NCBI GenBank assembly: GCA_037974665.1
Contig: CM075764.1
Location: forward strand, 80,065,825 to 80,129,824
Source: Ehretia macrophylla
Lineage: Eukaryota > Streptophyta > Magnoliopsida > Boraginales > Ehretiaceae
Direction: 5' to 3'
DNA length: 64,000 nt
The notes below the pieces were generated by a model. That model did not search any database and was not told the DNA's origin. It worked only from the letters and a program-made list of their open reading frames with translations. Positions 47,724 to 64,000 of this stretch are shown in pieces; within the stretch, counting starts at the first letter, position 1, and every line of letters starts with the position of its first letter. The position numbers were made by a program, and so were the translations under genes.

Positions 47724-47765
47724 TCATCGAACTAAAGGAATGAGTAGGTACTCTGCATAGAAGAG
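47724..47765 (-). CDS. Prenyltransferase last exon (13 codons and stop)
   Basis: Acceptor ACCCATGCAG. It encodes [13 protein letters not shown] and a TGA stop, the typical C-terminus of this enzyme family. The 251-bp intron before it holds a 26-bp direct repeat. Confidence 0.92.
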   Translation of the reverse strand, partial: LFYAEYLLIPLVR

Positions 47766-50700
47766 CTGCATGGGTAATATAAGCTAATTAATTCCTTCAT
47801 TATGTGAAAAAAAAAAAAATTAGTCTAACAGGTTGTGAGAAGATAGATATAAGTCCTCTAAGCATTACTTTTGATTGAGAAAAAGAATGCCTGATAGATA
47901 TAAGACCAACGAAGCATTTTGATGCATTTAAGTGAAGTTTCATTTTCATCGTACATACTGTTTAATTAGTCTAACAGGTTGTGAGAAGACAGATTTGCAA
48001 AGGGTCATATACTTGCCTTCCAAATGAACATGTAAAAGGAAGTTATAGATGGTTGATTGTAGAGGTTAACAGACTGAGCCCGAACGAGAAGAAGGAGAGC
48101 AAATGTAAAGTGACCCCCTACCTGTACAATATGTGCATATATCAATTAGCTAGCATATATAACAGAGTAAAGTATAATCGTAATAAATGTGTCAATGAAT
48201 AAACATCAAGGCATGCATACAGTTATGAGTTTGCTCACAAGGCTCGAGGAAGAAGCTCCTATTATCATGGCAGCTCCATATGCCACTAAAAGTGTGCTAA
48301 TACAAAGCCAAAAGACCTTTTATGGATGATAAGAAAAGCTTGTTAACATAATTGAATATTTTGAAATCTAACTTTTTTGGATGCTTGATTCAAGAACCAC
48401 ATTATACAGAAAAAGAAGGACAAAGTAAAAAAAAGACAATGAACTTGTTTATACTAACTCGTTCTTGCCCAAGACTGACGCTTAATGATCGAATGCCAAA
48501 GTCCCTGTCACCATCCACATCAGGTATATCCTGTGAAAATGACATTCAAAAATTATGCTTTTCCTTGCATTGTTGAGTTTAATATGATGGAAATGCAAAT
48601 GGTGATAACATTTGAAAGGCAATGAGAAATGAAGATATTGTATGCTATTAATGTACAGATTCAGAATAGGTTTAATTGTGATAAACATACATTATATTCT
48701 GCTAATTATTCTTTTGTTATAGAAGGCTATGAGTTGGACAAAGATGAGAGATTGTTGCAGATATGAGCTCATGGTTTGACAAATAAATGGTGAAATTTCC
48801 TTCCCAAACATCTATTTCTTTCAAGATATACAACAGTTAAGAGGCCTATACTGTGAAAAGAATGGTTAAGATTGGATAACGATCTGAATGTGTTGTTCGC
48901 CTTAGGTTGGATGAGTCTCCAAGTACCTGCAAAACGGCCCTGGGGGTTGCCCCCCTTAGCCCCCTCCAATAAGTTAGAGTAGGTCGGGAAAATAAAACTA
49001 TGAATGAAAGGAAGAAGTCAATGGATCAGTAAGTCTTACCCCTTTTTATGGGTGGACTCATCTATTTATAGGCTTCATAGGATTAGGGTTTCTGAAGTGT
49101 ACCATGTAGTCGGGGTGCCCTGGACGTCGGGGTGCCCAAGAGATCTCTCCCGGACTTGGGGTCCAATGGTGATCGGGTTATTCTCTTGGACGGGGTGCTC
49201 TATGAAGTTGCAGAGGTGCAATTGGGTCATGAGAGCCTTGGTTATTCCCTTTTGTTGTTCTTAACTTTTTGGACCCCCATTATTTGCCCCTGTTCCCTTT
49301 ACATTGAATCGTTCGATCGAGGGAATAATTCTGATCTGCCGCATTTATTGAATGACTTCTGGATTTATTCTTGGGATAGCATCTTTATGACAGTCGTTAT
49401 ATCAGCCGTCCTTCCATCTTTCTCCTTGTCAGTTCTTGCACACCTTTCGACCCTAGTGTTTCCCCCACTTAAATGACGTCCCTTCATCTCTCCAATTATA
49501 ACTCCTTTTTCGGTTATGCAATTATGACTACCACATTCTTACCACTATATATAGGGGGTGACTGCTTTTCGTTATCACTTTCAACTTTCCTCCTTCTATA
49601 TCCCCCGACCTGTGGAACAGATTCCCTCATCTTTCCCTTTCCTGCCTTTCTCGCACCGGTTCTACTCGAGCTGTTTTACCCTTCATAGGTATTTGAGTTT
49701 TGTCTTTTCAATTTTTCTTGTCTATTCCTTTTTCCTTGGGTTTGTCATAGAGTCCGAATCTTTTGATAAAGTTAATTCAGCGAGGCATGAGGAGGACACG
49801 GGGTCTTCTTCCTCAGGCTCCACATAATCTTCTTCGAGCTTTAAGGGGTCCTCATCAGGCTCTTCTGACGGATTGCCTCTTCTTGATTGATGCGAACCAG
49901 CCGTCCATCTTCATTGAACCATTTGGGCGTCCACATTCAATGAACCCATAGACGTCCATGTTCATTGAACCATTTATTTGGGCGAATTTTCCAGCAAAGA
50001 TTCAAGTCAAGATTCTATTTTCAAGATTCTTCAAAAAGTTTCAAAAAGATTTGAAGATTTGGTCAAGATTTGATTTCTTTGTAATTCTATCTTAGTTTTA
50101 GTTTTAGTTTAATTTGAATTCTAGTTTATTCCCTAGAGTCTACTATGGACGAAAATTAGGTGTTCACACTAGGAAAGAGTTTTTCTTAGGCTGCAAGTAG
50201 GTGTTCACATTAGGAAAGAGTCTTTCTTGGGTTCCAAGTTAGGTGTTCACACTAGGAAGGAGCCTTTCTTGGGCTGAAAGTTTGCTTCCTTTTGAGTTAC
50301 TATTCATATTACTATTCACATGAATAGTTAATAGGAGTCTTTCTTGGGCTCCAAGTCTACTTCTTTGACCTAAATACTATTCACATTTTTCCTACTTGGG
50401 CTAGGGTTTAGGAGTCCTATTCCAAGCAGGATACTTATTTGTTATTGCCTATATAAGGTTGTTTCTTGTGATAATAAAGGAAGATAACTTTGATATTAAA
50501 TTTGTGAGATTATTCTCCTCAAGTTCTCAATAACTTTTTTTCGAACTTATCAAGATTATTCTTGTGGCGTTCATCCTTGACTTATCAAACGGGAGACCAA
50601 GTATGCTTCTCTTGTTGACACGGTCGGGGTCGACGGCAGGAAAGCCGTGGAATCTTTCAAGCAAAACGCTGAGTTTAAGGTTCTGGTTGGGAAGTTTAGG

Positions 50701-53700
50701 AGTCCCTTTTACGCAGCAAGGCGCGCAGAAGTCTACCAGGAAGGTTTTTCAGAGGTTAAGGTTAAAGTGCAAGATGCATACCCCGACCTCGATCTTAGCT
50801 TCCTTGGTAGTTCTCAGCCCAATACTCCTTTGATCCCTGTCGAAGATGATCTTCCTTGGGAAGGTGATGCTCCTAAGGTTCAGGCTAATTCTTCCGAGAT
50901 CCATCCCAATGTCAGCATTCCCTTTGCCTAAAATTAGCAAAATGGATTTTGTGTGCTGTAAAAGCCTTCATGCTTTATTCCCCTTAGCGGGGCTTTTCTT
51001 GTAGCGACTTTTCTTCTTTAATGTAATTCGACGTTTTTCAACTATTGGTATGTTTTTATGCTATTCGTAGGTTTTTCTTTTTCCTTTTGTGTTCGTACTT
51101 ATATGTTTATGGCCTTGTTAAAGGAATTTCTAGCTACCTATGGCTAGGTTGGGGTTTTTGGCCCCATATGGCTGTTCTGGCCGGACAAGTTTGTTTCTAC
51201 CTTGTTATGGTTCTATTAACTTTTCAATATTTTTTTATCCTTTTCTTGTTATGGCTCTATTGGCCATTAGGGTTTTTCTACCCTTATCTTTTTATTACGA
51301 CTCTAACTGCCTTTTTATTCGGGAGTGTATCCCAAGTGCGGTTTTCCTTTTTATAACACACAATTCTTGTTCGTGTTCATCTTAAAAAGACACGAATTGA
51401 AACTTTCATTGATTGAGAATTGCGGCTCAAAAAAGATTTTTCAAGGCATTACAATCTAGACAAAATATCTGAAGATGTTCCATATGCCATGCGTTTTTCA
51501 ACTCTTTTCCATCTTAATCATACAGGACATAAGTGTCTGGCTTGATTTTTCTTTCCACACGATATGGTCCCTCCTAGTTGGGCCTAAGCGTCCTATCGGC
51601 GGGGTTGCTTTTGAAAATGGTTTTCCTAAGCACAAGGTCCCCACCCCGATGGGTTTTGGCTTGATTTGTTTGGAGAAGGCTTTCATCATGGCCCTTTTTC
51701 CAACCAGCATCTTTATTTAGGCCTTGGTCCTCAATTTTTCTACTAGGTCCAAATTTTCTCTGAGGAGTTGTGCCTTTATTCCTTCTTGATGCTGCTGCCC
51801 TCTAAGGCTTGGAGACCCGACCTTCACTTGAACGACTGCTTCTGAGCCAAAGGTCAGGCAGAACGGGGTTTCTCTTGTCCCCAAGGTCGGGGTTGTCTTG
51901 TATGCCCACAGCACCTCGGGGAGGACATTTGGCCAATCCCTTTTGCCTCTGTCAACTTTGTTTTTAGGCCCTACAAAATAATTTGGTTAGTGACTTCCAC
52001 TTGGTCGTTAATTTGCGGATGTGCAACAGAAGCAAATCTTAGATTGATTCCCAATTTCGCGCAGCTTTCTCTAAAATATGCACTGTCGAATTGTCTGCCA
52101 TGGTCGGTTATGATTGCTCGTGGTACCCGAACTGACATTCTACCGTCTTACATACGAAATTCCAGGCCACTCTTTCTATGATGCTTAAAGTGGCCTCTAC
52201 TTCAACCTATTTGGTGAAGTAATCTACTGCTACGAACACATATCTTTTCTATGCTACTCCCGATGGCAAACGACCAACAATGTCTAGTCCCCATTAAGCA
52301 AAGGGCCATGAACTAATGATACAAGTGAGGTCAATGGTCGACTGTCATTGGATTTTGGCGAATTGCTGGCAGACATCACACTTTTTGACAAAATCTTTAT
52401 TATCTTGTTGTAGTATTGGCCAGAATTACCCTGCCTGAGTGTTTTTCATGTTACAGCTCGCCCTCCAATATGGTTTCCACATATGTCCTCGTGCATTTCT
52501 CTTAACACATAGTTTCCATCCTCGGGGGTAACGTGTTTGAGTAAGGGCCAAGCGAAAATCACTTATAAAGTTACCCCCCAAGAATAACGAACTGCAAGGA
52601 CAGTTGTTCTATCTTCCTAGCCGTGTTCTCATCCTCGGGCAGTTCTCCTGACTCTAAATATTCTCGAATAGGCTTGGTCCAGTCAGGCCTTACATTGATC
52701 TCAATTATGGCTTTTCTTACTCCAGCGATATTGGTCTCAACAACTTCTTTGATTACGATCCCCGAGGGACTATTTCGCCCCAATGCCAACCGGGAAAGGG
52801 TGTATGCCTTCTTATTTTCTTCCCTTGGTATATGTTGTATAACGAATTAATTAAAGTTAGCACCACTCCTTTACTTTTTCCAAGTACGCTATCATAGTTG
52901 GCTTTTTTGCTTCGAAGGTCCTTGTGACCTGTTGGGCGACCAACTATGAATCCGTGAATATCTTGATAGCTTGTGCCCTGAGGTAGGCTGCTACCTTTAA
53001 TCTCACTATCAAGGCCTTGTACTTGGCCTTATTGTTGAGGCTGAAAAGACGAATTTAGAGAATACTAATAGACTTCCCCATGAGGATCAATTATGACTAC
53101 TCCCGTACCACTTCTTTGCTTGCTTGATGCTCCATCGACTTGGATTATCCACTTTGGTTTTGCGCCCGTCGGGGCCAAACTGGTAAACTCCACCACAAAG
53201 TCAGCCAGGACTTGGGCTTTTATTGTTGTTTGGGGTCGATACTCAACATCAATTTGGTTGAGTTCTGTTGCCCATTTGAGCAATCTCCTCGAAACTTCTG
53301 GCTTGCGTAACACCTGCCCAAGTGGCATATTGGTTATTACTTTGATGGGGTGGGCATCAAAGTAGGGCTTCAGTTTTCTCGAAGCTACAACTAAGGCCAG
53401 GGCTATCTTCTCTATTGTTGGGCATCTACGCTCTGCCCTTCTTCAGATCTTGCTAACATAGTAGACCGACTTCTGGGATCCGCCCTCTTCTTTGATTAGG
53501 GCCACTAACACCGCTATGCCCGAGCAAGCCTGGTAGATATAAAGTTTTCTCTCTTCTCTGGCCAGGATAACAGTAGTGGAGAGGATAGGTAACCTTTGAG
53601 CTTTTCAAATACCTCTTGGCTCTCCTCTGACCATTCAAAATTCCTTGGACTCCTTAAGAGTTTGAAGAAAGGTGCATATTTGTCAGTGGATCTGGACGTA

Positions 53701-56700
53701 AACCTGCTAAGGCTGCGACTTTTCCTGCTAGTTTCTGTACCTCATTCACATTTCGTGCTGGTAACATGTCCAGGAGCGCTTAGACTTTCTCGGGATTCAC
53801 CGCGATCCCTGAACGCGCACTTTTTTGGATTAAGCTTGATCCTTATCTTTCTCATTACCCTAAATGCCTTCGTAAGATCTGACAAGTGGTCCTCAACCTT
53901 CTTGTTTTTAACCAACATATCATCTATGTATATTTCCATGTTTCTTCCCAATTGGCTTTTAAAATCCCTGTTCACCATTCTCTGAGAGGTTGTTCCTACA
54001 TTTTTTAGCCCGAATGGCATAACTTTGTAGTAGTACACCCTTCTCTCAATGATGAATATGGTCTTTTCTTTGTCTTCAGGGACCATCCTAATCTGATTGT
54101 ACCCCTTGAATGCATCTATAAAACACAACAGCTTGTACCCCGAGGTGGTATCCACCATCTGATCAATATGCGGAAGAGGGTAACAATCCTTTGGACATGT
54201 TTTGTTTAGATCAGTGAAATCTATGCACATCCTCCATTTCCCTGGGGTCTTTCTGACCAAGACCACGCTCGCTAGTCAGGTCGACTATTTGAGCTTTCTT
54301 ATGTGCCCCCCCGTCCAACAACTTTTCAACTTCTTTATTTATAATCTGGTTTTCCTAGGAGTGGAAGTTCCTCCTCCTTTGTTACACCACTCTATGGGTT
54401 GGGTCCACATTCAAATGATGGGTAATAAATGCTGGATATATACCTATCATATATGTGGCAGACCATGCAAATACCTTCTTTTTGGTCAGGGCTCAGCTCA
54501 GCTCTTACTTTGGCCTTTCTGGTACTCTTGCTCAGCTCCACTTCTTCCAAGTCCTCGGAGGGGGTTTATTTTCTCTCATCCCTCTCCTCCTCGGGGAAGT
54601 TCATAGGGCCTTCTTCATCATCCTCGACCTCAAGGAGGCTGCGTAACATTCTCGGGCGATCTTTTGGTCTCCCCTTAGCTCTGCAATTCTACCGGGTGTT
54701 AGAAATTTCAGCCTAAAGTGAAAAGTCTCGACTACAACATGAAAGTGGTAGAGGGCCAATCTCCCAATGATTGCGTTATATGTTGAGTTATATTTTACCC
54801 CTATGAAGTTGGCCATTATGCTTATTTTTTTATCCCCGAGCTCGAGCGTAAGTGGGAGAGTAGTTACATCCTCGGGTCAGATGCCTTCTCTGAAAAATCC
54901 AACTAACGAATTCTTGAGGGGTCTCAGCATTTCCCTCATCTGCCCCAACTTCTAAAATGTATCATAGAATAGCATATCTGCTGAGCTGCTCATATCCACC
55001 ATCACTCTCCTGACCTCGACTCTCGATATTCGGACGGTGACTACCAATGGATCATCGTGGGGCAGAATTAATCCTTCTAGGTCTTTCTCTGAGAATGTCA
55101 GTTCTTCCGTAACTTTCAACCTTTTGGTCGGGGACTACTCATCCACCGCCTGTAAGTACCTTTTCCTTGCATTGCTACTTTTTCCATCAGCGACCAATCC
55201 TCTTGTAATAGTTTCAATTACCGCTATGTACTAGTTATCGTGCCCTCGTCGGGGGCTCTTCTCCCTCTCATATCTTCTTCCCTGATTGTTCCTATGTTTC
55301 GTAGTGTTGAATCTCTATAGCCTTTCCCTTTGTATTAAGAAATCAATCTCGTCCTTAAGCACCCTACAATCGTTTGTGTGATGACCATGGTTGTCATGGA
55401 ATTTGCAATGCAATCTCTTGTCTCGGGATTTTGGGTCACTTGTCATTTTCTTGGGCTATCTCAGCCCTTCTTCATGCTTGATCTCCATCAGTACCTCTGA
55501 GGGGGGCATTGTGAGCGGAGTATAATGTGCAAAATACCCCGGCTTCTGCGAGCTCTTGAGATCGGGCTTTGGTTTACCCCCGCTTATCCCATCTCAAGGT
55601 CTGCTTTCTTCTCTGGACTTGCTTTTGCCTAAATCCAACTTCCTGCTACCTTCGTGCTCCTTGCCCTCGTCTTTCTTCACCTGGAGGGCTTCTTCGGCAT
55701 GGATATATTTTCCTGGTCAGGCCATTAGGTCAGTAAGGCTTTTTGGAGGCTTTTTGGCCAAGGCATCCTAGAAGTTCTGGGGTCTCAACCCTTGTTGGTA
55801 AGCCACCATGGCTACGGACTCCTCCAAGTCAGGGACGTCCAAGGCCACCTAGTTAAAGCGGGAGGTATTCTCCCTCAGTATTTCATCCTTGTGTTGTCTA
55901 ATGGTAAGAAGGTGCGACGTGAGTCTCGTCGGCCTTTAGCTGCTGACAAACCGGTCCAAGAACAGCGTTGTTACTTGCTAGAACTCATCAATAGAATTTT
56001 CAAGCAACACTTTAAACCACCTCCGGGCTGGCCCCGTAAAGGTAATTAAGAACGCCCAGTACCTTAAAGGGTCTGGAATATTATAGAACATCATACTCTG
56101 GTTGAAATTCATGAGATGATCCTTGGGGTCCCCGACCCCATTGTAGAATGACAACGGGTGTAGCTTGTATCCTTGAGGTATGGGCTCGGCCATAATATCT
56201 ACTATGAAGGGTCCATTATTTTGACCCACTATGACTTGGGAAAGATTCCCTGGGCCCGCTCTAGATGCCTTGTGCCCGCCAGGGCTGGCCACGGGTCTTC
56301 TACCTCTGGCCACCTCTATCTTTTTGTTGTGACTAGGGAAACCCGTTTCATTCTCTACCACCGTCGCAGGTCTCACAACTTCGGTTCTGTGGGCTAGTAG
56401 AGAGAGGCAGCCCCCGAGGGAGGGGTTGATTCTGAGTAGGCTGAGTCTAAGGGGTTTCTTTGTTCGACCCTGCTTTGCCAGGGTCGCCTGTATCTCTTGC
56501 ACCATCTGATAGAGGGTTGGTATGTCCATAATCGCATGGGTGGTGAGATTGGTGGGGCCATATTCACAATTGGGACAATGTATACTGGCTGAGTTTAGGA
56601 TGGAACTACATAAGTGGGCATGATAGTAGTGTAAGGGATAACTGATGTTGGTTGAGTTGGCAGAACAGGCGGGATTGGGAAAAAGCTAACAACCACTGAT

Positions 56701-58737
56701 GAATTGGTGCCAAGGGGGTAATTGACTACGGACGATGGCTCAACCATAGGCGTTAGGCTAATTGGAGGTGGATGAAGTTCGCATTGTAATGGCTTTGAGG
56801 CCTGATTTGCTATTATCCCTGGCGGAGGCAGTTCTTGCTCATGGTAAGCCTGACTTCTTGTGCTAACCATTGTGGTATTCTCAGTGGAAAGATTTTCAGT
56901 TTCTTACAGACGACGCCACCTGATAAGGATCTGAACGTGTTGTTCGCCTTAGGTTGGATGAGTCTCCAAGTACCTACAAGAATGTCCCTGGGGGTTGCGC
57001 CTCTTAGCCCCTTCCGATGTTTAAGTTAAAGTAGGTTGGGGGAATAAAGCTATGAATGAAAGGAAGAAGTCAATTGATCAGTGTGTCTTACCCCTTTTTA
57101 TGGGTGGACTCATCTATTTATAGGTTTCAGAGGACTAAGGTTTCTAACGTGTACCTTGTACTCGGGGCGCCCTAGATATCGGGACGCCCTAGAGATCGGG
57201 GCTTTCCCAGACTCGGGGTCCCTTGGTGATCGGGTTATTCTCGTGGTTGGGGTGTTCTATGAAGTTGAAGAGGTGCAGTCGGGTTATGGGTGCCTTGGTT
57301 ATTCCCTTTTGTCATTCATAACTTTTTGGACCCCCATCAAAAGATCTCTTAATTGATCGTTCTCAATTTTAACAAAAGAAACAGGTCACTTATTCAGCCA
57401 AGCCTGCAAATGGGACTAATGTTAGTATCCCTAAGCTTCAAAATTCTGGTAACCAAGCTCAGAAAATGTCGGCCACTCCGTTCCCATCACAAGGTTCTAA
57501 AGATAAAAATTTTACAACTGCTACAGGCAAAGTCATTTCAAATTTCAGTTCTTCTAGCAAGGAAAATTCCGTTGCCTCAACTTCAAGAGTTAAATCCTCT
57601 TTCGACTACACTCGGGCAGTCTAAGGCATCTTCAATGGAAGACCACCTGATCGAAAAACTCAATGATGATGTTGTTGTTGTTGTTTCGTTTTGTCCGTTT
57701 TCAAGTTTTTTTGCTTACGGTCTGCAACCGATTTGATTTTCGTTTGTTTCTTCATTGTTCTTGTTTATGACACCAGTTGTCATGCAATTTGTACTTTGAT
57801 GTACTTTTTCATTTTCTATCAATAAAATCCCACTGAATTAACAAAAAAAAAAAAAAAAAAGATTAATGGTAATCTCTATCTGTAGTCATCTTATCCTGCT
57901 AGTCATCAAGGAAGTATGATGGCCATTAAAGAAGTTCAAATGTAGGCTTTGACATTATACAACTGTACCAAGGCAACAAATTGAACTCACTGTCTCACAT
58001 GGTAGATCGAAATAATTTCATATTCGGAAAAACTTGACCGGATTCTATGCTTTGTTGATCTAGAATAGACAACTATGCTAGCATATTGAATTATTTCTTT
58101 AGGTGAATACGGCAAAGAACTTCATAACTTTCATGGTAGTGGATTTCTCTAACGCACCCTAGATTTGGCATAAAGCCATTTCTTATTCTTCTACTTCGCT
58201 TGACTATAGAATTAATGAAATCATGTTGCAAACTAATATTATATATGCATCTAGTATCACTTTAGTTGGTCATACAAGTATAATAGTTTGAGCAAAGACA
58301 TATTTTATTCTTCGAGTAAGTTGGACATATCAGTGGTTAGAAGTTATTATCATCATACAAATAAATTCCCTGAGGTTCTTTGAACTTGTTTTGTAATGCA
58401 ATTAGGATTAGTGTGCAATCTTGTGAACGATGAGTGTTACCTTGAAAAGTGCTATGACAATGGAGAATAAGCACATGAAAGCAACTGCGAAAATCAATGA
58501 TCTTGTAAACATTATTGGTCTATGAAGCACATATTTCTGTATAAATTAAACCACCTTCTGTTAGTTATTTCAGACATATATAGAAAACCAAAAGTAGAAT
58601 TAGTTTCTGCTTCTTAAAAGAAAGCAATTTACTACCTGAGTATGTATGAAGAAGGCAAACTGAACTACGATTCCTCTTACAAGCACAATGCATGTTGCAG
58701 CAAGAAATCCATTTTTTTTCCATCTGAGTGAAGGTAG
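47724..58737 (-). CDS. Homogentisate phytyltransferase-like aromatic prenyltransferase (UbiA family), 3' six exons
   Basis: Six exons with consensus borders and phase-0 joins give an unbroken 170-residue C-terminal part of a membrane aromatic prenyltransferase. Such enzymes attach a phytyl, solanesyl or dimethylallyl chain to homogentisate or flavonoids, usually in plastid membranes. Evidence: the second Asp-rich motif KDIPDVDGD (prenyl diphosphate and Mg2+ binding) spans exons 58441-58536 and 48459-48530. The family wording [34 protein letters not shown] and [18 protein letters not shown] is present, as are several hydrophobic helices. The full family length is about 390-410 residues, so the transit peptide, first Asp-rich motif and first helices lie beyond the right edge. 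No stop or frame break is seen. The 48531-58440 intron carries GYP-M and a LINE tail, and COP-P sits in the next intron upstream. Which branch it belongs to (VTE2 or flavonoid prenyltransferase) cannot be told from this part. Confidence 0.9.
47818..47989. repeat. 26-bp direct repeat within the last intron
   Basis: AATTAGTCTAACAGGTTGTG and the next six bases (AGAAGA) occur at 47818-47843 and 47964-47989, 146 bp apart. The second copy lies close to the unusual GC donor at 48015-48016. It may be a footprint or a local duplication. Confidence 0.85.
48017..48121 (-). CDS. Prenyltransferase exon (35 codons) with apparent GC donor
   Basis: Acceptor TTGTACAG. It encodes [20 protein letters not shown] and then [11 protein letters not shown]. 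The natural exon end after FIWK is followed by GCAAGT rather than GTAAGT, which fits the minor GC-AG intron class; the rest of the donor is consensus. Confidence 0.88.
48221..48316 (-). CDS. Prenyltransferase exon (32 codons)
   Basis: Acceptor CATAAAAG, donor GTATGC. It encodes [20 protein letters not shown] and the following [11 protein letters not shown], a hydrophobic helix and loop matching the family. Confidence 0.9.
48459..48530 (-). CDS. Prenyltransferase exon with the second Asp-rich motif (24 codons)
   Basis: Acceptor CATTTTCACAG, donor GTTAGT. It encodes [20 protein letters not shown] then GQER. With the K ending the previous exon this forms KDIPDVDGD, the conserved metal/prenyl diphosphate site. 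It lies 9.9 kb from the preceding exon. Confidence 0.93.
48873..49282 (-). repeat. GYP-M LTR (3' LTR in element sense)
   Basis: This 410-bp LTR matches 56921-57339 (shared words TTCGCCTTAGGTTGGATGAG, CCCTTTTTATGGGTGGACTC, ACTTTTTGGACCCCCAT). Flanks AAGAT (48868-48872) and AAGAT (57341-57345) look like a target duplication. The two LTRs differ visibly throughout, so this is an older insertion than TRG-A or TRG-C. Confidence 0.88.
49283..49887 (+). mobile_element. GYP-M antisense ORF region, promoter and N-terminal part
   Basis: Between the GYP-M 3' LTR and pol, the plus strand (antisense to pol) carries a TATA box (49545-49554), a CT-rich leader, then coding-like sequence ([20 protein letters not shown] near 49770). 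Antisense ORFs in this position are known in the Tat lineage of plant gypsy elements. It is interrupted at 49888 by TRG-N. A fossil; product unknown. Confidence 0.55.
49545..49554 (+). promoter_or_regulatory. TATA box for the GYP-M antisense ORF
   Basis: CTATATATAG followed by GGGGGTGACTG, with a pyrimidine-rich leader downstream, fits a pol II core promoter facing away from the element's own LTR direction. Motif evidence only. Confidence 0.5.
49888..50593 (+). repeat. TRG-N partial LTR inside GYP-M
   Basis: This TRG LTR starts TGATGCGAACCAGCCG and carries three copies of the CATTGAACC/GTCCA repeat near its start. It ends at CTTATCAAACGGG, before the usual GTTCGTATCA end. Beyond 50593 GYP-M antisense-ORF sequence resumes. 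Confidence 0.85.
50594..50931 (+). mobile_element. GYP-M antisense ORF region, C-terminal part
   Basis: The plus-strand open frame ends at 50931 and encodes a stretch with [20 protein letters not shown] and [12 protein letters not shown], rich in acidic and polar residues at its end. No known catalytic domain. Position and orientation match the Tat-lineage antisense ORF. The stretch 50940-51480 that follows is non-coding, with a pyrimidine-rich run. Confidence 0.6.
51481..56920 (-). mobile_element. GYP-M Gag-Pol: Tat-lineage Ty3/gypsy element (fossil)
   Basis: In sense order, a short ORF starts [12 protein letters not shown] (56870). Gag follows, with a capsid-like block ([18 protein letters not shown], about 56000-56100), Gag tail and knuckle to about 55200. 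The protease end ([13 protein letters not shown]) is near 54770. Reverse transcriptase ([29 protein letters not shown]) lies at 53740-54266 and RNase H to about 53340. A second RNase H-like domain ([20 protein letters not shown]) starts at 53160. Integrase core runs to about 51720 ([16 protein letters not shown]), and the integrase tail is near 51500. The extra RNase H before integrase plus an antisense ORF define the Tat/Ogre-type lineage. There are ten or more frame breaks. Confidence 0.85.
56921..57339 (-). repeat. GYP-M LTR (5' LTR in element sense)
   Basis: This 419-bp LTR starts TGATAAGGATCTG on the plus strand. The adjoining internal end reads GGTGGCGTCGTCTGTAAG on the minus strand, a primer-site-like word of the non-iMet type used in this lineage. 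It pairs with 48873-49282. Confidence 0.88.
57346..57860 (+). mobile_element. LINE 3' tail with poly(A), 5'-truncated
   Basis: A degenerate coding stretch (Ser/Lys/Asn-rich, about 57380-57620) is followed by a 3' UTR with TTTGTACTTTGATGTAC, AATAAAATCCCACTGAATTAAC and a run of A (57841-57859). The same tail words occur at 33941 and, less exactly, 20725. Words AATGGT(TAAG)ATCTCT before GYP-M and AATGGTAATCTCT after the poly(A) could be its target duplication, with GYP-M having landed in it. Confidence 0.65.
57861..58440 (-). other. Intron sequence of the prenyltransferase gene
   Basis: No coding frame or recognised repeat was found. It lies between the LINE tail and exon 58441-58536 and is probably original intron. 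Confidence 0.6.
58441..58536 (-). CDS. Prenyltransferase exon (32 codons)
   Basis: Acceptor TTTATACAG, donor GTAACA. It encodes [17 protein letters not shown] and a hydrophobic run ending IVIALFK, the lead-in to the second Asp-rich motif. The 99-bp intron to the previous exon is normal in size. Confidence 0.92.
58636..58737 (-). CDS. Prenyltransferase exon (34 codons, first visible)
   Basis: The exon starts after GGGTTACAG and ends CATACTCAG before GTAGT. It encodes a stretch beginning [12 protein letters not shown] and ending QFAFFIHTQ, matching the family block PLLRWKRFA...VQIAFYLHIQT. It includes one hydrophobic helix. Confidence 0.9.
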
Positions 58738-58922
58738 CTGTAACCCATACAAATATATGAAATGACAAAATTTAACAAAAAAAAAAACTCAAGTTAGAGC
58801 ATCAAATTAGTTAAACAAGTCTAGAGAATGGATTGAAGTCCTGAAACCTATTCTGAGGGGTTGAGCTTTGGGGATTGGGCGATGGGTGTTTATGCCCACA
58901 AGGGCTTTAATCATATAATGCT

Positions 58923-59346
58923 TGTTGGAAAGTAAACTTGAATTTGGGCTAAGTATCAAGCATTGGGCTAGCTATAACATTTCTTTGGTCCAAAAGAAAA
59001 AAATGTTGGTCCAATTGAGAGCTCAAGATAGAAAATTATCTAGCCCAAATTCTAGAAGAAGTCTTGGAAGAATATCATGGAAAATTATCTAGAAGAAAAT
59101 TAATTTATTCTAAATATATTTGACTAGCTAGAAGATTCCAAGCATCTTCAAGAATATATTGTGTGTAGAATGCTCCTTGAGCACCTATAAATAGGGGACA
59201 ACTACAAGCATTTGTAACCAAGCCAAAAATTGTAATCTCCTCTTCAATACAAACTTCTCTAGTTCTTCCATATTTTCCTGTTCTACTTCCTAAATATTTC
59301 CTACATTAGTTTTAGTTCTCCAAATTAGTTTAGGCCTATCACAACA
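58923..59346 (+). repeat. COP-P 5' LTR
   Basis: This 424-bp LTR (TGTTGGAAAGTAAAC...GGCCTATCACAACA) pairs with 63440-63874. Flanks ATGCT (58918-58922) and GTGCT (63875-63879) fit a one-mismatch target duplication. The LTRs differ by several per cent, so this is not a recent insertion. The primer site at 59350 is a variant (TGGTATAAAGATCTAGG). Confidence 0.92.
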
Positions 59347-62300
59347 AAGTGGTATAAAGATCTAGGTTGTGGCGACATCAAGTGTAGCATTCCCATTTCC
59401 AAGGCTCTTCAACGACAACTATAAAAGGTGAAGCATCCAAATGAAGACATATCTTAGCGGCCAAGATATATGGAATGTTGTTGAAGAATGTTATGAGGTA
59501 CCCGAAGATGAGGCCATTCTTACTCAAGCACAAAAGAAGGCTTTGAAGGATTCTAAGATGAAAGACCAAAAGGCTCTTTCAATCATCCAACAAGCCGTAG
59601 ATGATGCCACGTTTGAGAAGATTGCCCAAGCTTCAACAGCTAAGAAAGCATGGGCGATTCTTGAGAAAGCATACCAAGGAGTTGTTAAGGTAAGAAAAGT
59701 TTGTCTTCAAGCTCTTAGAGTTGAATTTGAAAACTTACAAATGAAAAAATCCGAGTCAATTTCCGACTATGTTTCAAGAGTTCAATCCATAGTTAATCAA
59801 TTACAAACAAATGGTGAAAGCATAGGTGATGTTCGGGTCATTGAAAAAATTCTCCGATCATTAGATTCAAAATTTGACCGTATGGTAGTAGCAATTGAAG
59901 AATCTAATGATCTCGAGAAAATGACCATTGATAAACTCATCGGTAAACTTCAAGTACATGAAGAGAAGGAATAAAGAATCACTCGACCAAGTCTTGCAAG
60001 CCAAGCTCAACCTCAATCAAGGAGATCGAGACCTTGGTGATAAAAGAAGCCAAAGAGGACAAGGATGTGGACAAGGACAAGGACGTGGACGTGGACGCAG
60101 TCGTGGTCGTGGCTGAGGAAGAGGAGGATACTACACACCCTACAATGAGAAGGAGGATAACAATGGATCATCAAACAGACATGGAAGAAGAGGAGCTCAA
60201 AGACCAAGGTATGAAAAGTCCGAAGTTGAATGTTACAATTGTCACAAATTCGGTCACTATGCCTCAGAATGCCAAAGTTCAACCAAGAATGTTGAGGATA
60301 GAACCAAATACGCTGAACAAAAGAATGATGAGGTAGACTTCATCCTCTTACTCGCATACAAAGGATATGGAGATGGAGAACAATATATATAGTACCTCGA
60401 CACAGGTGCAAGCAACCACATGTGTAGTAACAAGAACATGTTTGGCGAGCTTGATGAATCGATGAATGGAAATGTCACATTTAGAGACCTATCTAAGACT
60501 CCGGTCAAGGGCATAGGTAAAATACTAATCCGCCTAAAAGATGGAAGACACCAATTCATCTCCAATGTATACTACGTGCCCAATATGAAGGCCAATATCT
60601 TGAGTATAGGTCAACTCTTAGAAAAGGGCTATGATATCCACATGAAAAATCATAGTCTCTTCCTAATAGATCAAACAGGAAACTTAATTGCCCAAATGCC
60701 CATGACCAACAATAGAATGTTTCTATTGAACATTCAAAATGATAGCCTCAAATGTTTGAAAGCATGCTTGGAAGACACTTTTTGGCTATGACACTTGAGG
60801 TTAGGTCATCTCAATTTTTTAGGAATAAAGCTACTATTAAAGAAGTATATGGTCAAGGGGCTGCCTTCCATCGATCACCCCAATCAAATATGTGAAGGAT
60901 GTCTACTTGGCAAGGAATTCCGAAAAAGCTTCCCACAAGAGGCATCATCAATAATAAGGAGTCCATTGGAGTTAGTTCACACCGATGTGTGCGGCCCAAT
61001 TAACCCAGCATCATTTGGCAAAAATAGATACTTCTTTCTCTTCATCGATGATTTCAGCAGAAAGACATGGATGTATTTTCTAAGAGAAAAAACAAAGGTC
61101 TTCAATGCCTTCAAGAAATTCAAGGCTCTTGTGGAGAAATAAAGTGGATATACGATAAAGGCAATAAGATCCAATAAAGAGGGTGAATTCAACTCACATG
61201 AGTTCAAGACATATTATGAAGAAAATGGAATCAAACGTCCACTTATTTTTCCTTACTCACCACAATAAATTGGAGTTATAGAGAGTAATAACTAATCCAT
61301 CCTTGACATGGCAAGAAGCATGCTCAAGAGTAAGATGTTTGACAAAGGAATTTTGGGCCAAAGCTATGGATTGTGCAGTGTATCTATCAAATCGTTCTCC
61401 CACAAGGAGCGTGTGGAACAAAACATCCCAAGAAGCATGAAGCGATCATAAGCCAAGTATTGCACACCTTCGAGTATTCGAAAGCATAGCATATGTACAT
61501 GTTCTAGACCAAAGAAGATCAAAGCTTGATGATAAGAGCTAGAAGTACATCTTCGTCGGTTATGATCAAAACTCAAAAGGACACAAGTTATACAATCCAA
61601 GTACAAGGAAGTCCATCTTTAGCAAAGATGTGGACTTCAATGAGAAAAACTCATGGGATTGGAGTAAACAAGAAAATGAGCAATAGCAGTTCTTCCCAAT
61701 GCACGAAGAAAACCCACCAAGAACTGAAGAAGCAACTAACCGTGACTCCGACTTCATCACCAATAACTCTACAAGAAGCAACATCATCATCAATGGAGAG
61801 CTCAGATGAAAGGCCTCACCGAATGAGGACTTTACAAGAAATTTATGAGGTAATAGAGAATCAGAACGACCTCACTCTATTTTGTCCATTTGCTGATTGC
61901 GAGCCCTTCAACTATTAAGAAGCCATAAAAAGTAAAGAATGAAGAAAAGCTATGGATGAGGAGATTAAAACAATTAAGAAGAATGACACGTGGAAGCTAG
62001 CAACCTTACCAAATGGACACAAGGCAATTGGAGTAATATTGGTCTACAAAGCTAAGAAGAATGCCAAAGGAAAAGTTAAAAGATAAAAAACAAGATTGAT
62101 GGCTAAAGGATACAAACAAAGAGCTGGCATTGACTATGATGAAGTCTTCGCTTCAGTTGCTCGACTAGAAACAATAAGATTGTTGATCTTAATAGCAGCT
62201 TAGAAGAAGTGGAAGATCTATTAGATGGATATTAAGTCAGCATTCTTATATGGATTTCTCGAAGAAGAAGTATACCTTGAGCAACCTAAAGGCTACATCA

Positions 62301-63439
62301 TTCGAGGCCATAAAGACAAAGTCTTGAAGTTAAAAAAAGGATTTGTATGGGTTGAAGTAAGCTCATCGAGCATGGAATACTAGAATCGACAAGTACTTCG
62401 AAGAGAATAATTTTAGAAAATGTCCTCACGAGCACATATTATACACAAGAGTGGATGGAAAATGAGATATTATGATTGTCTGCCTGTACGTGGATCACTT
62501 GATCTTCACTTGAAGCAATCCAAAAATGTTCAAAGACTTCAAGAAGGCAATGACACGAGAATTCAAAATAACGGACATTGGGCTCATGGCATACTATCTC
62601 CGAATTGCAGTAAAATAGATGGATGATGACATCTTTATATCCCAAGAAGGATATGCAAAGGAAATTCTTAAGAAGTTCAATATGGACAACTGCAAGCCGA
62701 TAAGTACCCCAGTAGAATGTGGAGTAAAGCTGTCAAGATATGACGAAGCTAAGAAGGTGGATCCAACATTGTACAAGAGCCTGGTCGGGAGTCTACGATA
62801 TTGGACATGCACAAGACCAGACATCCTATTTGGAGTAGGACTCATCAGCAGGTTCATGGAGACTTCAACAACTCATCACTTCAAGGTTGTAAAAAGAATC
62901 CTTCGATACATAAAAAACACTATTAATTACGGTATCTTTTATCCCTCTTCAAACAACTTCAAGCTAGTAAGATACAGTGATAATGATTGGGCTGTAGACA
63001 TGGATGATCGAAAAAATACATCAGGGTTCGTGTTTTACTTTGGAGACACAACATTCATATGGACCTCAAAGAAGCAACCAATAGTTACATTATCAACATG
63101 TGAAACTGAATATGTAGCCGCTACTGCAATTGTGTGTCATGTGCTATGGCTACGAAACTTGCTTAAGGAGCTCAACTTTTCTCAAGATGAAACAACATAA
63201 ATATTCGTGGACTAGTCAGCAATTGCGTCGGCAAGGAACCCTATCTTCCATGATAGAAGCAAGTACATTAATACAAGATATCACTTTATCAGAGAATGCG
63301 TGACAATGAAGGATGTCTAGATAAAGTACGTGAAGCCACAAGACTAGTTAATGGATATGTTCACTAAGCCTCTCACGACTGAAGTTTCTCTCAAGCTGAG
63401 ATCTCGTCTTGGAATAACAAATTCAATTTTAAGAGGGCG
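59347..63439 (+). mobile_element. COP-P Gag-Pol: Ty1/copia element, full length but broken (fossil)
   Basis: Gag lies in an open 177-codon frame at 59441-59974 (UBN2-type: AWAILEKAYQG, VRVIEKILRSLDSKFD). An Arg/Gly/Asp-rich linker and a CCHC knuckle are near 60230. The protease motif [10 protein letters not shown] is near 60405. The integrase finger and core lie at 60795-61340 (LVHTDVCGPI, FFLFIDDFSRKTW). Reverse transcriptase lies at about 61960-62650 and RNase H at 62619-63200 (TSGFVFYFG, CETEYVAATA). A polypurine tract AAGAGGGCG adjoins the 3' LTR. Domain order protease-integrase-RT-RNase H is copia. About ten frame breaks. It sits in an intron of the prenyltransferase gene, antisense to it. 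Confidence 0.9.
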
Positions 63440-63874
63440 TGTTGCAAAAGTAAACTTGAATTTGGGCTAAATATCAAGCATTGTGCTAGCTATAACATTT
63501 ATTTGGTCCAAAAGAAAGAAAATGTTGGTCCAATTAAGAGCTCAAGTTAGAAAATTATCTAGCCCAAATTCTAGAAGAAGTCTTGGAAGAATATGTTGAA
63601 AAATTATCTAGAAGAGTCTACAAGAAAAATAATTTATTCTAAACTAGGAATATTATCTAGCATATTCCAAGCATCTTCAAGAATATCTTGTGTGTAGAAT
63701 ATTCCTTGAGCACCTATAAATAAGGGCAACTCCAAGCATTTGTAACTAAGCCAAAAATTGTAATCACCTCTTCAATACAAAGTTCTCTAATTCTTCCATA
63801 TTCTCCTCTTCCACTTCTTAAATATTTCCTACATAAGTTCTAGTTCTCCAAATTAGTCTAGGCCTATCACAACA
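63440..63874 (+). repeat. COP-P 3' LTR
   Basis: This 435-bp partner of 58923-59346 starts TGTTGCAAAAGTAAAC and ends GGCCTATCACAACA. AATAAGGGCAAC near 63720 is the likely core region. Confidence 0.92.
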
Positions 63875-64000
63875 GTGCTTTTGTTGGTTCATTCATGTAA
63901 TCATAGATTATATATGTTATAGGAACTTCAAAAGCACTGGGTCGGGTTTCAGAATGTAGCAAGTTGGGATCCATGGTTCATTACTTAGATTGGTAAGGTA
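63875..64000 (-). other. Intron sequence at the right edge
   Basis: The sequence resumes after COP-P. No exon of the prenyltransferase was recognised here, so the upstream exons are beyond the window. Confidence 0.5.

Follow-up and report, generated by a model that had tools for sequence, protein, structure and literature searches.

A complete twelve-exon prenyltransferase gene of the HPT branch, carrying two intronic retroelements, is a candidate for specialised aromatic prenylation in Ehretia macrophylla

The window analysed here, 64,000 nucleotides of Ehretia macrophylla contig CM075764.1 (assembly GCA_037974665.1, positions 80,065,825 to 80,129,824), holds the 3′ half of a complete gene whose exons 1-6 lie outside it. 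The reading that we favour, and consider fairly probable, is that of a complete 12-exon nuclear gene for a membrane aromatic prenyltransferase of the homogentisate phytyltransferase (HPT) branch, an old duplicate with a specialised role. The full model comprises 1194 coding bases and encodes 397 residues with no internal stop over a span of 19.5 kb; 10 of its 11 introns are GT-AG and one, intron 11, is GC-AG. A previous sequence-only reading had described a seemingly intact gene; with the exons outside the window added, it turns out fuller than the window could show.

Each of the six minus-strand exons in the window (34, 32, 24, 32, 35 and 13 codons, the last followed by the stop) is in phase 0, and joined they read through 170 residues with no stop; their outer ends, 58737 and 47724, were confirmed as previously given. 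The splice borders described at the same time held for the AG acceptors and the GT donors; the single exception, a GC donor after exon 11, had gone unmentioned. The motif KDIPDVDGD is interrupted by intron 8, its K being the final codon of exon 8; because introns split the motifs in this way and left only the part after the K visible, a motif search missed the gene. Missing or disrupted upstream exons, named earlier as an outcome that would count against the gene, were looked for in the flanks (80 kb right of the window, 10 kb left of it), using the translated exons of the nearest paralog as queries. Pieces of exons 2-6 were found in this way just beyond the right edge, and exons 1-6 read from the sequence there are intact. 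Exon borders are in phase 0 from exon 3 onward. For exon 1, phase and donor served as the criteria: 69 pairings of an ATG with a donor were compared within 3 kb upstream, and the one with the best score was taken. The gene belongs to haplotype b of E. macrophylla, which is given as 20 scaffolds and 1.58 Gb in an excerpt of PMC11153487. The features are listed in Table 1.

Table 1. Exons, introns and intronic elements of the gene, in window coordinates unless marked otherwise. LTR, long terminal repeat.
Feature	Position	Strand	Description
Exon 1/12	67254-67209	-	15 codons, phase-1, best donor among candidates
Exons 1-6	67254-64250 (C1:80133078-80130074)	-	just right of the window edge
Exons 2-6	65740-64250	-	borders read from sequence after exon-wise tblastn with C16 HPT exons
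Intron 6, window part	58738-64000	-	whole intron 64249-58738, running beyond the window to 64249
Copia-type LTR element, intron 6	58920-63874	+	antisense to gene; LTRs 58920-59346 and 63437-63874
Exon 7/12	58636-58737	-	34 codons, LPSLRWKK...FIHTQ, phase 0; 102 nt also in C16 paralog
Exon 8/12	58441-58536	-	32 codons, KYVLHRP...IALFK; 96 nt also in C16 paralog
Intron 8	58440-48531	-	9.9 kb
Gypsy-type LTR element, intron 8	48875-57337	-	sense to gene; LTRs 48875-49280 and 56922-57337
Exon 9/12	48459-48530	-	24 codons, [24 protein letters not shown]; second Asp-rich motif; 72 nt also in C16 paralog
Exon 10/12	48221-48316	-	32 codons; length equals C16 paralog exon
Exon 11/12	48017-48121	-	35 codons, then AAG/GCAAGT donor; length equals C16 paralog exon
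Exon 12/12	47724-47765	-	[13 protein letters not shown] and stop; 13 residues identical in C16 paralog

The joined 170 residues match Pfam UbiA with an E value of 4.3e-19, so the exon match goes beyond chance. With the complete protein the match to UbiA (PF01040) covers residues 129-385 (2.8e-35; 122.2 bits, gathering score 34.2), and the NCBIfam homogentisate phytyltransferase model NF009525 gives 281.3 bits against a cut-off of 226. The HPT on contig C16, described below, scores 314.6 bits. HST of the same genome is also above the cut-off, at 272.3 bits; NF009525 thus marks the wider VTE2 branch and leaves the substrate undecided. At that level, the sequence-only reading was right in its family call, and membership among the HPT and aromatic prenyltransferases of the UbiA superfamily is supported. 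Among sequences with solved structures, only two weak matches to the 170 residues were found, both to chlorophyll a synthase (7e-4 and 8e-4). The two Asp-rich motifs are NQLFDINID in exon 4 and K/DIPDVDGD across exons 8 and 9 (the slash marks the border); N160, Q161, D164, D168 and D294, D297, D301 are invariant across the window protein, HPT and HST. Hydrophobic stretches run along residues 110-396, as in the C16 HPT, although the count of transmembrane helices is unreliable. Residues 1-96, where a plastid transit peptide would lie and which include the weakly placed exon 1, contain 5 D/E, 18 K/R and 13 S/T.

The nearest relative lies on contig C16 (527206-533953, L017), where we found a complete HPT gene of 400 residues in 12 exons, with 11 of 11 introns GT-AG. 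Exon lengths are the same in the two genes for all six window exons and for 10 of 10 when exons 3-12 are compared; exons 1 and 2 differ in length, and the phase-1 first intron is common to both, so that the HPT exon structure is present in the window gene. Over exons 3-12, 163 of 281 residues are identical, and the identities at the three codon positions are 0.67, 0.80 and 0.45. Among the matches listed, the C16 protein matched exons 7-8 at 1e-17 and exons 10-11 at 1e-11, and the short exons 9 and 12 singly at 4e-4 and 0.01. Match counts in the genome protein searches are lower bounds: the 170-residue query gave at least 13 (5 in the gene itself, 7 in two C16 loci and 1 weak on C4) and a 281-residue query at least 18 (9 in the gene itself and 9 in the two C16 loci). 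Since the genome has a separate intact HPT whose ten core exons match in length, we infer that the window gene arose as a paralog of HPT long ago and has since diverged; the C16 gene is likely the true HPT. Identity to an Arabidopsis VTE2-1 sequence, to be treated as a lead, is 77.7% for the C16 gene and 59.2% for the window gene.

A tree was built from three Ehretia proteins (the window gene, the C16 HPT and HST) and four bacterial sequences. The latter (L030-L033) came from the second of two prokaryote scans, in which query A1 gave 22 loci, the 18 shorter or weaker ones being left out; the first scan, with query A2, gave no match. The window gene has a branch of 0.76 and the C16 HPT one of 0.29, a difference of about 2.6-fold, which is no more than suggestive of faster evolution in the window gene than in the retained HPT. 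In a second version, with one provisional Arabidopsis VTE2-1 sequence added, the window gene falls outside the pair of C16 HPT and VTE2-1 with a support of 72, a placement compatible with a duplication either before or after that split.

The genome searches that were run turned up no further copy of the window gene. Of two DNA probes, one covered exons 7-8 and the intron between them and the other exon 2; each found its own locus only, in a type of search that can miss sequence; this argues against a recent copy without excluding it. Ten other UbiA loci (L019-L028) were considered as possible closer paralogs. Seven match ubiquinone- or PGT-type queries and not HPT, and for L026 and L028 no match to any of the five queries was seen. 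The tenth, L022 (C4:8977309-8977509), weakly matches the C-terminal part of the window protein (33.8%, E 0.003) and is perhaps a decayed or distant UbiA gene.

The more than 13 kb of inserted elements that had been placed in two introns could be traced to a copia-type element of about 5.0 kb between outer LTR ends in intron 6 and an element of 8.5 kb in intron 8, which by our own reading is gypsy rather than another type. The copia element has a gag domain (PF14223) at 59441-59971, and its flanking 5-mers, ATGCT and GTGCT, were read by eye as a target-site duplication with one change. In the intron 8 element, reverse transcriptase (PF00078) was found at 53745-54266, and no target-site duplication was recognised. 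The copia LTR pair has 39 differences in 426 columns (distance 0.098 ± 0.016) and the gypsy pair 50 in 406 (0.136 ± 0.020). At substitution rates of 1.3e-8 or 7e-9, the insertions would be 3.8-7.0 (copia) and 5.2-9.7 (gypsy) million years old.

The LTR divergence in these introns served as a neutral clock for coding sequence left unselected since insertion. The copia clock predicts 58 substitutions, with 2.2 new stops (probability of seeing none, 0.11), 2.2 changes among the 44 bases of the splice dinucleotides (0.11) and 8.4 indels (2e-4). By the gypsy clock the figures are 81 substitutions, 2.5 stops (0.08), 3.0 splice changes (0.045) and 4.4 indels (1e-2). The indel figures rest on few gap openings (6 and 3). 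We observed 0 stops, 0 frameshifts and 1 splice base unlike the paralog, the GC donor, a change of a tolerated kind. Since stops and indels would be expected over such neutral change and none is seen, selection probably kept the gene after both insertions, and the evidence for this is good but not overwhelming. That the frame and all splice dinucleotides but one GC donor survived the LTR insertions also strengthens the possibility, raised by the sequence-only reading, that the gene may still be expressed.

Several points weigh against a complete and selected gene of specialised role. Exon 1, with its 15 codons, is without homology support and is the weakest exon of the model. The intron-5 donor, ATG/GTTAAT, is weaker than the ATG/GTAAGT of the paralog, and the intron-11 donor is a GC (window 48016, AAG/GCAAGT, compared with AAG/GTAATG in the C16 paralog). 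It stands in a strong context. LTRs may mutate faster than genes, and stops alone give a P of only 0.08-0.11. Between the window gene and the C16 HPT, the proportions of synonymous and nonsynonymous differences (pS 0.676, pN 0.265; pN below pS in 500 of 500 bootstraps) give a dN/dS of about 0.19. This speaks for the gene, but the ratio averages two lineages and pS is near saturation. Tajima-type relative-rate tests with three outgroups were not significant (chi2 3.27, 0.56 and 3.79). Finally, intron 8, 9.9 kb long and with a sense-oriented element, could end transcripts early.

This last point leads to an explanation that we consider unlikely, in which the gene is dead or silent: its frame would be intact by luck or because death was recent, and the element in the 9.9-kb intron, or spreading silencing, would block a full transcript. 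The retroelement-rich surroundings and the presence of one GC donor and one weak donor would fit such a history, and the same-strand element may bring its own signals. However, LTR distances have reached 0.098 and 0.136 and the 1191 coding bases are still without a stop or frameshift, and AAG/GCAAGT is an accepted form of the minor GC-AG introns. Moreover, Arabidopsis genes carrying heterochromatic transposable elements in their introns are transcribed, according to an excerpt of PMC4417168. A chance assembly of short frames, or of unrelated fragments carried by elements, could draw on the shortness of every window exon (13-35 codons), but it is refuted by the completed gene model and retains practically no probability, given the colinear order, the phase-0 borders from exon 3, the ten exon lengths equal to those of the paralog, the 163 of 281 residues identical to it and the two DNA probes that hit this locus only.

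A question of function rather than of integrity is whether the protein is a second tocochromanol enzyme, either an HPT or an HGGT using geranylgeranyl diphosphate, still acting on homogentisate and having a tissue-specific role. We regard this as rather improbable, if somewhat less so than a dead or silent gene. It would agree with the HPT equivalog cut-off being passed and with the conserved motif aspartates and exon layout; nevertheless, HST of the same genome passes the same cut-off, so that the model is silent on the substrate. An intact HPT is already present on C16, and the branch of the window gene is about 2.6-fold longer, although the relative-rate tests do not reach significance.

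We return to the specialised aromatic prenyltransferase, which is the best reading because Ehretia makes prenylated phenols, benzoquinones and one isopentenyl flavonoid. An excerpt of PMC11885236 lists prenylhydroquinone, 4-hydroxy-3-prenylbenzoic acid, dimeric prenylbenzoquinones and the isopentenyl flavonoid ovalifolin from Ehretia species; the sources named there are E. longiflora, E. microphylla, E. buxifolia and E. ovalifolia, and not E. macrophylla. No single substrate is picked out, since the PGT-like single-exon genes of this genome could equally yield prenylhydroquinone and 4-hydroxy-3-prenylbenzoic acid.

UbiA enzymes bind Mg and the prenyl diphosphate through their Asp-rich motifs and transfer the chain to an aromatic ring within the membrane. 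Duplicates of HPT are a known source of many plant aromatic prenyltransferases. Along these lines, the window gene would have been born by an old HPT duplication and would probably have evolved faster than the retained HPT. Its protein would act in the plastid envelope, where the two Asp-rich motifs would bind Mg and the prenyl diphosphate and the prenyl chain would be transferred to an aromatic acceptor used in place of homogentisate or in addition to it. The C16 gene could serve tocopherol synthesis, which would free the window gene for another substrate, and both LTR elements would be spliced out with their introns, having been tolerated for millions of years. A narrower proposal, which we put forward tentatively and hold to be rather doubtful, is that this is an HPT-derived, specialised aromatic prenyltransferase of Boraginales, distinct from the retrotransposed PGT enzymes behind shikonin precursors, and that the prenylated flavonoids, hydroquinones or benzoquinones of Ehretia come from it. 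If true, Boraginales recruited both the HPT and the ubiquinone branches of the UbiA enzymes. The gene is a good candidate for biochemistry, but it belongs to a familiar class of enzyme genes and lies in a setting of a familiar type. No enzyme is described for the prenylated phenols and quinones of Ehretia in the excerpts of open-licence literature searched, and that question becomes testable now that an intact candidate has been modelled in full. There is also an annotation hazard, as a gene that intronic retroelements have lengthened to 19.5 kb is easily split or masked.

Several other features were recorded. Of the 18 window open reading frames of at least 150 residues, seven were scanned: five contain retroelement domains, and two, 55981-56529 in the gypsy element and 62619-63197 in the copia element, matched no family. 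Beside the LTR in intron 8, the stretch 57340-57861 ends in an A-run and by eye resembles the 3′ end of a LINE (long interspersed nuclear element). About 73 kb to the right of the window edge, an exon of TRAPPC9/Trs120 (L016:3119-4048, PF08626) marks a host gene.

Elsewhere in the genome, C12:33303128-33414087 (L001-L005, L008) carries intronless UbiA genes in tandem: five have a 327-codon open frame and a sixth is split. These copies are 96.2-99.7% alike, and L004 lacks the usual first ATG. Two intronless UbiA genes of 373 residues, about 71-73% like the C12 copies, lie at C10:62515203-62535165 (L006, L007). L001 and L006, the two of these eight that were scanned, pass the 4-hydroxybenzoate octaprenyltransferase model. 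The single-exon PGT family is ascribed, in an excerpt of PMC7261806, to retrotransposition in the ancestor of the shikonin-producing Boraginaceae; because resembling intronless genes are present in Ehretia, the event may be older than that ancestor, as our data suggest. Multi-exon UbiA pieces were found at C15:0.54-0.60 Mb, C3:9.85-9.92 Mb, C7:5.55-5.65 Mb and C5:43.97 Mb. The seven loci in these regions that match ubiquinone- or PGT-type queries are L019-L021, L023-L025 and L027, and the ubiquinone-type family has apparently expanded.

Of the known systems, VTE2-1/HPT, represented by the C16 gene, is the closest: it has the same 12 exons, ten core exon lengths, motif aspartates and C-terminal [13 protein letters not shown]. 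It differs in that identity over exons 3-12 is 58% and the branch of the window gene is longer, and only the window gene has a GC donor and two intronic LTR elements. The second motif reads DIPDVDGD in the window gene, DIPDIIGD in the C16 HPT and DLPDVEGD in HST; in exon 9 of the C16 HPT (L017:6382-6453) an isoleucine occupies an otherwise acidic place. VTE2-2/HST (C16:3.93 Mb, L018), named by our own reading of its motifs, belongs to the UbiA family and passes the same NCBIfam model, but has 33% identity to the window gene and, by eye, a different exon structure. The flavonoid, coumarin and phenol prenyltransferases of legumes, citrus, hop and Apiaceae derive from the HPT branch and have the two-motif layout; those of citrus are mentioned in an excerpt of PMC6603238. 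The Lithospermum PGT is likewise a UbiA prenyltransferase of Boraginales specialised metabolism; according to the excerpt of PMC7261806, it is intronless and retrotransposed from a ubiquinone-type prenyltransferase, whereas the window gene has many exons and belongs to the HPT branch.

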